Part shown: in pieces, positions 17,913 through 21,853 of the stretch
Layout of the letters: every line of letters begins with the position of its first letter
Position numbering within the stretch: position 1 is the stretch's first letter
DNA from: Hypericum androsaemum
Lineage: Eukaryota; Streptophyta; Magnoliopsida; Malpighiales; Hypericaceae
Length of the DNA stretch: 64,000 nucleotides
Direction: 5' to 3'
NCBI GenBank assembly: GCA_963995505.1
Contig: OZ023199.1
Span: 10,151,373 to 10,215,372, forward strand
The notes under the pieces: model-generated
The model's input: only the letters and a program-made list of their open reading frames with translations
Told to the model about the DNA's origin: nothing
The model's database searches: none
Made by a program: the position numbers and the translations under genes

Positions 17913-17950
17913 CTACGAAAAATCATCCAAAAACATTATGCAATTATGAG

Positions 17951-18056
17951 GCCAACGGGTATCTGGCCTAGTGGCATATGCGTTGCTTAACTTTAAGAAG
18001 GTCAATGGTTCAATTCTTGACATTGTAATTAGATATAATATTTACCTTTTAAAAAA
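17951..18056 (+). mobile_element. tRNA-derived SINE with 16-bp target duplication
   Basis: The 106-bp insert is flanked by ATTATGCAATTATGAG at 17935-17950 and again at 18057-18072, a perfect 16-bp duplication. The insert contains an A-box-like TGGCCTAGTGG (17964-17974) and a B-box-like GGTTCAATTC (18007-18016) at RNA polymerase III promoter spacing. It ends in an A-run. It lies just outside the right end of TIR element A. Confidence 0.85.
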
Positions 18057-18072
18057 ATTATGCAATTATGAG

Positions 18073-19475: not shown

Positions 19476-20708
19476 CTGCTATAACAATTATAATGAAATT
19501 TGGTACGAGTTATAATAGTCTTTGATTTTTTATATAAAAAAAGAATGTTTTCAATTTTAAGTTTGTAAATAAGACACTGTTTTGATGTTTCTCCTTATTT
19601 ATTGATTCAGAATTCTAGATTTGGTCGTTCTGCATAATATTGAAACGATATATACCAGAGGTGAAATTTTATTTTAATATCTTATAGTTTAGTACATTTT
19701 AAATAAGTATTATATAGTTCAAAATGTGTAAAAATAGTGACACTTTTTTTGTGTGAAAAAAGTAGAAAAATATATTTATCTTAGTATTATGTATAACTAT
19801 GTAAAATAGTTACAAGTTGTCACACAACAAGTGGAGAGCACACATCAATTAAACCACATGATATTTACAAATATTAATTGTAAAAGTTTATCGGATGACA
19901 CTGCAACGTCAAACAGAAAAATCCGTATCATTTCTAATAAAAACGTGCCAAACTACATTTACTAGATTAGATTTAACTTAACTTAAGTAAAAAAAAAGAT
20001 ATTAGATTTAACTTGGGCGTAAAATAAAAACTTTCAAAAGTGTGCTCCATACTCTTTGGCTGAAGCGACTTATATTTAAGTTAAACCTTGACCATTCACG
20101 TGAAACATGACACGGTTTCTCTCAATTAATGAATAATTATTTAAAGCTAAACCTCTCTTATCCAATTAAATATAATTCAACTAACAAATACTTATATCAG
20201 TGTTTAAATAAATTGTTGTATATTAAAAATGAGTTCTTGAATTTAACTATTGAAATTGTAACAGTATTAAATATTCGAATTTATAATAGTCGACTGAATA
20301 ATTGTCTGATTATCTAATGTCATGAAATAAACTAAATATCCATTAGGATCACAATATTTGTTCTAGGCTGTCAACGGAAGAAAGGCTCCAGTCGCCACCT
20401 GCTCTCTGTCTTCTAACCTTTTGTTCCAAACAATTCCACTAAATCCTAAAGAACCCAAAAAAATGTTAAGCAACTGGAAAGGAGGAGGAGGAAAGATGGT
20501 CGTCATCTCTTCAACTACTAACGAGTGGCCACAGGTCCTCTCCTCTCTCTCTCTCTAAATTATTATTGTCAAAACATGACCCAGTTTTTTGTTTCCTAGC
20601 TTTTGGAATCGAATATATACGCCGTGTTGTTCACTTCGAGACCCTTTTATCTTCTCCTGATCCCTCAATTTTTTCCTTTTCTCCTCCTCCTCCTTATTTT
20701 TCTTCCAT
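19476..20708. other. Intergenic and promoter region of the Dof gene
   Basis: The sequence is AT-rich up to about 20370. The stretch before the Dof start carries a (CT)n tract at 20539-20557 and a TATA-like GAATATATAC near 20610. The transcript start was not determined. Confidence 0.45.
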
Positions 20709-21708
20709 ATGATTTCCATCCAGAGCCAGACAATTGATGAGAGAAGCAGCTTAATGGCACCAACTAGCGGGTTCCTAATGGAGAAAGCAGCAACCAACCA
20801 AGAACAGCAGCATCAGCATCCCCATCCGAGCCAGTTACATGGGCTGAAATGTCCCAGGTGCGAATTTTCCTCTCGTAGAAATAAATTTTTACATAAGTGT
20901 CCGGAATTGAACCTGGACTTCCGTCCGTAGGTGCGATTCTTCCAACACCAAGTTCTGTTACTACAACAACTACAGCTTGTCTCAGCCCCGGCACTTCTGC
21001 AAGGCTTGTAAGAGGTACTGGACACGAGGCGGAACCCTAAGAAACGTCCCCGTCGGTGGCAGTTGCCGGAAGAACAAGCGCGTCAAGAAGCAGCCTTCCT
21101 CCTCGGTAGAAGCCAATACCGCGTCCACTAGTACTAAAGCCAATGCAAACCCTAACCCTACCACTGCTGCTGTTACTACTACTTCTTCCTCTCAAGCCCA
21201 GATGGATATCATTTCTTCTGGTCCAAGCCACCTCAACCCTTTGTTCTTTGGGCTACCCACTAACTCATCAGAGATGAATCTCCATGGGTATGACCTCCAG
21301 CCCCAGTTGAATTCTCTTGGGCTAGGGTTTTCTTCCAATCTTCTATTTGGTCCAAGCTACTCCTCTCCAACAATGGCCACCTTGTTAGCTTCAAGCTTCA
21401 ACCACCAGAAGTTCAGTGCTAAAGGTGACCCCAATAAGTCTCCCTTTGACCAGTTTCAAGCCTTGACAGGGCAACAACCATTTGATGGGCTTCAAGTTCA
21501 TGGATCAGAGAATGTCTTGAAAGGAGTGAAAGTGGAGAATGGACAAGGCATGACTTATCATCAGGAAGACTACCACCAATTTGGGTTCTCCTTGGATCCT
21601 AATTCCCTTTATTGGGGCAATGGTAGTAGTACTAACCCGAGTAATAATCCCGGTGGTGCTTGGCATGATACTGCGAATCTTGGGCCCTCGGTGACTTCCC
21701 TGATCTAG
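20709..21708 (+). CDS. Dof-type zinc-finger transcription factor with an intron inside the zinc finger
   Basis: This is a DNA-binding transcription factor that recognises AAAG cores. Exon 1 is 20709-20857 and exon 2 is 20931-21708. Splicing out 20858-20930 gives 308 residues. The Dof finger is then complete: C48-x2-C51-x21-C73-x2-C76, with [37 protein letters not shown] and the basic end CRKNKRVKK. Without splicing the frame reads [10 protein letters not shown] and stops at 20930, so the protein would be lost. The C-terminal part is rich in S, N and P and ends LGPSVTSLI. Dof introns usually lie upstream of the finger, so this position is odd. The start at 20709 is the first ATG in frame; M16 or M24 are alternatives. 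The gene could instead be a fresh pseudogene. Confidence 0.85.
20858..20930 (+). other. Putative 73-nt recently gained intron, SINE-like, in the Dof exon
   Basis: The octamer AGGTGCGA occurs at 20856-20863 and 20929-20936 and borders a 65-nt insert. The insert carries a B-box-like GGTTCAATTCC on the minus strand followed by ATGTAAAAATTTATTTCTAC, as in a 5'-truncated tRNA-derived SINE. Because the duplicated octamer contains AG-GT, it supplies both the 5' splice site (CAG|GTGCGA) and the 3' splice site (GTAG|GTGCG). Removal of the 73 nt restores the Dof codons exactly (phase 2). Confidence 0.75.
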
Positions 21709-21717
21709 TCACCATCT

Positions 21718-21845
21718 GATGTCGTGGGCGAGATGGCATGCAGGTACGTCGAGAAGTGGAGATTCAAAACGGGTTGCGAGGTGCATGCCGGTCTCGCAAC
21801 CCGTCAAAATCTCTCCTTCTCGAAGTACCTACATGCCATCTCGTC
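21718..21845. repeat. Long hairpin just downstream of the Dof stop codon
   Basis: The arms 21727-21780 and 21793-21844 pair with few mismatches around a 12-nt loop. The innermost 12 bp (ACGGGTTGCGAG with CTCGCAACCCGT) pair perfectly. The hairpin is flanked by CACCATCT at 21710-21717 and 21846-21853, an 8-bp direct repeat that resembles a target duplication. It lies in the probable 3' UTR. It could be a small foldback MITE or a precursor of small RNA. Confidence 0.8.
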
Positions 21846-21853
21846 CACCATCT

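Follow-up and report, generated by a model that had tools for sequence, protein, structure and literature searches.

Is the 73-nt stretch that splits a Dof zinc-finger exon in Hypericum androsaemum an intron made by a mobile element, or the scar of an insertion that killed the gene? The locus lies in a 64-kb stretch of DNA, here called the window. An earlier reading of its letters alone (the sequence-only reading) had proposed that a truncated tRNA-derived SINE duplicated a proto-splice site on landing and so created an intron de novo. As set out below, it is highly probable that an antisense, 5'-truncated tRNA-type SINE was inserted in the finger exon of a DOF1.4-like gene, and that the duplicated AG|GT turned the insert into a spliceable intron.

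Results

A split Dof finger in a DOF1.4-like gene

As shown in Table 1, the 65-nt insert was bordered by an 8-bp duplication, AGGTGCGA, at 20856-20863 and 20929-20936. Removal of 20858-20930, which begins with GT and ends with AG, left the finger intact in a reading that, counted from the ATG at 20709, has exactly 308 residues, and the B-box-like GGTTCAATTCC was found on the minus strand, all as the sequence-only reading had it. The unspliced reading frame stopped at 20928-20930, and retention of the intron put in-frame stops into both the window copy and the C13 paralogue described below. When the spliced protein was compared with Pfam PF02701, it scored 115.8 bits and its downstream half alone 65.9 bits, and the retained 73-aa reading gave no match to this family. 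From its sequence, the window intron would be spliced out. With 73 nt and 59% A+T it comes close to the lower bound for introns of plants; its C13 counterpart has 90 nt and 70% A+T. A minimum of 70-73 nt is quoted for plants (PMC1626468), and the window intron sits at it.

Table 1 Features of the DOF1.4-like gene, its insert and a related SINE copy (window positions).
Feature	Position	Strand	Remarks
Probable exon 1 of the DOF1.4-like gene	20463..20534	+	ATG 20463, or 20496 as in the C13 copy; N-terminus like DOF1.4
Intron 1, ordinary	20535..20723	+	Common to the C13 paralogue, 136/167 aligned bases identical
Exon 2, ends ..CCC AG inside the Arg codon of CPRC	20724..20857	+	
Left target-site duplication copy AGGTGCGA, source of the predicted GT donor	20856..20863	+	Identical in the C13 copy
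New intron (predicted), 73 nt, phase 2, GTGCGA..CCGTAG, 59% A+T	20858..20930	+	C13 counterpart 90 nt, L004 1416-1505
SINE remnant, 65 nt, 5'-truncated, antisense to the gene	20864..20928	-	SINE homology
B-box-like GGTTCAATTCC, inside the insert	20903..20913	-	
Right duplication copy AGGTGCGA, source of the predicted AG acceptor	20929..20936	+	
Exon 3: remaining Dof finger and C-terminus, stop 21706-21708	20931..21708	+	Ka/Ks 0.035 for finger and basic part vs C13
Full-length SINE, related multicopy family	Element 17951-18056, duplications ATTATGCAATTATGAG 17935-17950 and 18057-18072	+	40 scored matches

The true start of the gene very probably lies 5' of 20709, before the ordinary intron 1, which would make a protein of 316 aa. 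An in-frame ATG was present upstream of the one at 20709, at 20463; the exon that it opens ended with MVVISSTTNEWPQ, as in DOF1.4 proteins, and the N-terminus resembled their MLGNCEKMVVIS..NEWPQ (MVVIS..TNEWPQ). Among the 120 homologues listed of 7503, DOF1.4 was the name of many of the best, the first listed having 50% identity over 86% of the query; the best-covered of the 120 were at most 50% identical, and one reached 59% over 47% of the query. The finger start was intact as protein in all 120. Both the Dof finger and the DOF1.4 N-terminus were present in the window gene, which shares the PF02701 finger and the N-terminus with DOF1.4 proteins and differs from them in having its finger exon split by an extra intron.

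Directly 3' of the DOF1.4 stop, at 21718-21852, a near-perfect foldback was also observed (-91.7 kcal/mol, z -12.3, 0/200 shuffles). It has scattered single mismatches like a microRNA precursor and is absent from the C13 paralogue, and no Rfam match to it was found in the window. It is a candidate for a new microRNA gene or a foldback element.

The duplication was weighed against its background. The AGGTGCGA octamer occurred nowhere else in the 64-kb window on either strand. The window together with 100 kb of C13 contained 3825 AGGT..AG pairs at a spacing of 70-129 nt. The score of the window copy (9) was reached by 2.1% of them and that of the C13 copy (8) by 2.7%, figures that local tandem repeats inflate. 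Taken by itself, the 8-bp repeat falls short of being overwhelming; the insertion case draws its strength from the site that the paralogue shares and from the SINE match. The duplication of the window copy may extend to 15 bp with 2 mismatches. A DNA transposon with an 8-bp duplication was also considered and rejected, since no terminal inverted repeats were seen by eye in the window insert, which matches a SINE.

The insert matches a tRNA-type SINE

The genome search covered 385 Mb in 29 contigs, in which the window gene is the C20 copy. The sequence-only reading had pointed to the genome for the SINE source of the insert, and the 73-nt query led to one other place, C1:20559296-20559341 (89%, E 7.5e-9), in an unlinked locus termed L002. 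By eye and against consensus words, L002 has A-box-like and B-box-like stretches, an A-tail and a diverged flanking direct repeat, and it looks like a SINE copy. Its A box, TGCCCCAACCGG, agreed in 11/12 positions with the consensus, and the B box of the window insert, GGTTCAATTCC, in 10/11 with the consensus GGTTCGANTCC. An A box was absent by eye from both the window and the C13 insert, a 5' truncation, and the window insert was therefore classed as a truncated derivative rather than an intact SINE.

In alignments, the window insert was identical to L002 at 41/46 positions and to the C13 insert at 39/47, while the C13 insert, which retains more SINE 5' sequence, was identical to L002 at 58/70; none of these values was reached in 500 shuffles (0/500 each; 21 pairs tested in all, no correction). 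A profile search over 265 kb with the C13 insert was weaker than the alignments (E 0.001 vs L002; 0.002 to 0.22 vs C20). The A-run of the C13 insert lay one base from the duplication; in C20 the tail no longer consists of a plain A-run. By this homology, both inserts are identified as antisense, 5'-truncated copies of a tRNA-type SINE, which bears out the origin first proposed for the window insert.

The only members found of the insert's own family were those at C20, C13, L002 and, as described below, L045. Further close copies were sought with the 73-nt query, an L002 query and a 35-place pattern allowing 3 mismatches, which returned only C20 and C1, suggesting that the family is old or small. 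The SINE copy at 17951-18056 in the window is related to the intron's SINE family and is not its source: it was identical to L002 at 39/43 positions (0/500 shuffles), and its own family, which occupies at least 40 places in this genome, gave 40 scored matches at 83-100%, the window copy included, among 222 candidate places. For this window copy and the next 20 best, the best flanking repeat was 11-20 bp with at most 3 mismatches in 16 of 21 (no control), so that a length of 8 bp, though short, is nothing unusual. The window gave no match in Rfam or tRNA scans.

The intron is shared with a paralogue under selection

The genome search with the Dof finger gave 49 matches at 46 places (counted from rows). 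At the site of the window intron, 42 of the 46 were uninterrupted and two were split, the window gene and its C13 relative; the two remaining matches do not extend to it. The split count leaves out two short matches, on C11 and C10:1989408. Both split genes matched the finger query only from residue 4. In the C13 copy (L004) the same AGGTGCGA pair flanked an 82-nt insert, making a 90-nt intron at the same base, and many collinear BLASTN matches were seen around the two genes.

Over the whole gene, the window and C13 copies differed by Ks 0.52 and Ka 0.156 (Ka/Ks 0.30). The new intron was identical at 54/68 positions, and the ordinary intron 1 at 136/167. The new intron has thus aged like intron 1, suggesting that it was present before the two genes parted. 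We therefore regard the SINE-made intron of the earlier reading as upheld but not its freshness in the window gene: by these comparisons the intron is old and predates the duplication at Ks ~0.5.

Selection was then compared part by part. Ka/Ks between the two copies was 0.198 in the exon part before the intron, 0.035 in the finger and basic part after it, 0.428 in the C-terminus and 0.33 in all downstream sequence. As the finger is whole only when the intron is removed, this low Ka/Ks is the best non-RNA evidence for splicing in both copies. The two inserts differ in length by 17 nt, and the exon frame is kept. The selected frame common to both paralogues argues against a pseudogene, a reading that was rejected. 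The left GTGCGA was conserved in 6/6 positions between the copies, which proves no constraint, because identity over the whole intron is already 54/68.

Two further probable intron gains among Dof genes

Among the broken matches of the finger search were three additional Dof genes whose finger is interrupted by an intron; they represent two further gains. In all three the site was QPR|YFCK (QPR|YYCK in L045), in phase 2 and elsewhere in the finger than the window intron. In L045 (C6), the intron was 103 nt long and its ends carried the duplication AGGTACTTTTGTAAGA vs AGATACTATTGTAAGA (14/16), with the A-rich SINE 3' end directly at the duplication. Its insert matched the C13 DOF1.4 insert at 55/66 positions (0/500 shuffles) and was weaker elsewhere (18/21 to L002, 2/500; 13/15 to the C20 insert, 12/500). 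The L045 paralogue L024 (82% over 303 aa, Ks 0.296) had no intron at the site, and this empty site was identical to the left duplication copy of L045 in 16/16 bases.

The other gain concerns L047 (C13), whose 126-nt intron had the duplication CAACCCAGGTAYTTTT (15/16) and an insert of another family, with A-box-like and B-box-like stretches by eye. Its tandem twin L046 shared the insert (55/64), but its duplication was degenerate (score 3), and L046 therefore counts only through L047. Ks was 0.166 between the twins and ~0.54 between each of them and the uninterrupted L027 (C20). Compared with the SINE sequences and the DOF1.4 and C6 inserts, L047 was no better than shuffles and L046 weak at best (43 to 309 of 500), so that the SINE nature of this pair is argued from its anatomy. 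The inserts in the Dof genes are antisense, which turns the A-tail into a T-run directly inside the donor.

A scan of 34 loci (L003-L032, L045-L048) for AGGT-anchored repeats found a B-box word in L003, L045, L047, L006 and L029; L006 and L029 were set aside by eye. The same scan missed L046 and gave no B-box flag in L004. When the window and a 100-kb stretch of C13 were scanned in a similar way, both DOF1.4 inserts were flagged along with numerous other repeats, of which a considerable share belonged to tandem arrays. Among the scanned loci, L048 (G000:C10:15536500-15538500) is a Dof gene in which the match to the finger breaks off after residue 41; it may be a decayed copy.

Measured in relative terms by these divergences, the DOF1.4 gain would date to before Ks 0.5, the L045 gain to after Ks 0.3, and the L046/L047 gain to between Ks 0.55 and 0.17. 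Within a single gene family, spliceable introns have thus probably arisen by SINE retroposition at AG|GT sites on at least three occasions. The model of a target-site duplication at a proto-splice site, which the sequence-only reading had invoked for a single gene, gained support from the SINE homology, from the same intron in a paralogue with a selected frame, and from the other two gains among Dof genes, for one of which a clean empty site survives.

Other gene families

Among TCP genes, 44 matches (48/48 candidates scored) contained no adjacent split pair. GRAS genes gave 113 matches (110/167 candidates scored) and one gene with a possible gain, at C2:458728-459961. In this locus (L049, G000:C2:458000-460500), which we take to be SHR-like, positions 1460-1550 formed a 91-nt GT..AG split at SSR|YDFV whose ends carry the 7-bp repeat AGGTACG and in which no SINE was recognised. 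The other four GRAS split pairs that were judged by eye were rejected: an in-frame insertion in C10, a frameshift in C18, and a long intron in C16 and C5, a pair that is presumably SCR-like and was judged from C16 alone, leaving out the C5 counterpart sequence. For AP2 the scores cover 150 of the 228 candidates, a list below which half-domains would fall, and this family is not counted here. The TCP and GRAS results refer to adjacent split pairs and leave aside short partial TCP matches and partial, distant or stop-bearing GRAS matches.

In the matches read from these families (Dof, GRAS, TCP) there was no sign of a mass burst of SINE-made introns. Nor was an introner-type mass of like introns seen among the 46 Dof places, which held 5 split fingers from 3 gains, 2 of them from one SINE family. 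The Dof excess (3 gains in 46 places) may come from the P-R-[CY] codons, which read CCN-AGG-TRC, or from chance.

Discussion

The following course of events would account for the DOF1.4 intron. A truncated, antisense tRNA-type SINE would have retroposed into the Dof-finger exon at CCC-AGG-TGC. The target-site duplication would have copied AG|GT, so that the left copy supplied the GT donor and the right copy the AG acceptor, while the antisense A-tail became a T-rich stretch just inside the donor. The spliceosome could then excise the insert exactly. Later the gene would have been duplicated with its block (Ks ~0.5), both copies keeping the intron, and the window copy would have shrunk to 73 nt. 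The donors of all five introns agree in 6 or 7 of 9 positions with the consensus, compared with 5/9 for intron 1 of the same gene. A YTGAA word was present in each of the five, at a distance of between 17 and 56 nt from the acceptor. In four of them this word results from reading the B-box stretch backwards; in L046 it belongs to the A-box part. This word (in the window TTGAA at -21, in the antisense B box) is a possible branch point.

Had the insertion instead killed the gene, the open frame downstream would be a relic. The stop of the unspliced frame at 20928-20930 would fit such an outcome, but both insert-bearing paralogues keep an open frame under purifying selection (Ka/Ks 0.035 in the finger, 0.33 in all downstream sequence), and the exon frame is kept across a 17-nt difference in insert length. 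Nor would a protein started within exon 3 save the finger, as the first in-frame ATG there lies 90 residues in, behind it. We consider a relic very improbable. It is hardly credible, too, that the intron dates back to an ancestor of the DOF1.4 genes in many plants, with losses elsewhere, the SINE having landed inside it. The other species were compared as proteins only, which leaves some room for such a history; however, the SINE remnant fills almost the entire intron from duplication to duplication, with little space for an older one, and in this genome the site is unbroken in 42 Dof places.

A staggered double-strand break filled with stray DNA would lead to the same splicing as the SINE insertion and differs from it in origin, the likeness to a SINE being that of the filler. 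Both models accommodate short terminal direct repeats, and the 5' truncation and short A-tail of the element would suit filler. The insert nevertheless reaches the A-rich 3' end of the SINE, one base from the duplication in C13 and directly at it in L045, and the L045 insert, with its 16-bp duplication, comes from this family and shares its 3' end, so that we hold filler to be improbable and retain SINE retroposition as the preferred origin.

A p-SINE1-like intron in rice CatA catalase homologues was reportedly described by Iwamoto et al. in 1999, a paper cited in PMC3151243. It resembles the present case as a plant SINE-like sequence serving as an intron in a coding gene; in the Dof genes three gains are seen in one family, with splice sites inside the target duplication and, for one gain, an empty site. 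Introners are introns derived from transposable elements, and some of their families, such as that of Florenciella, take both splice sites from the insertion site (PMC9860276). According to the same paper, introners are mass-copied, most are suggested to spread by DNA transposition, and none were found in land plants. Introners and the Dof introns are alike in that a mobile element makes the intron, with splice sites from the insertion site in some families; the Dof element, in contrast, is a SINE retroposon whose copies are few and old, and no mass of like introns was found in the families examined. The Daphnia neointrons (PMC4202315) have short direct repeats of 4-12 bp at their ends, for which double-strand-break repair is proposed. 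Such repeats at the ends of new introns are the point of likeness, whereas the Dof insert can be recognised as a SINE rather than filler, its 3' tail abutting the duplication or stopping one base short of it. We found no report of a SINE-made Dof intron in the open-licence literature searched.

A wider view can be offered as a tentative and rather doubtful proposal, namely that antisense SINE insertions at AG|GT are a recurrent, general route of intron gain in this angiosperm lineage, introner-like but run by a retroposon, with the Dof genes as the first visible cases. The A-tail and B box read backwards would then provide a T-rich stretch and a branch point, the two splice sites would come from the target duplication, and insertions into exons would thus be neutral at once.

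The origin of introns is a long-standing question for which few cases can be traced, and a broad survey reports no introners in land plants (PMC9860276). Here, three gains of different ages were found in one gene family of one genome, with a recognisable element, a preserved duplication and, in one sister gene, the empty site. With the element, the duplication and the empty site all traceable, the target-duplication model of intron gain becomes directly testable in these Dof genes.
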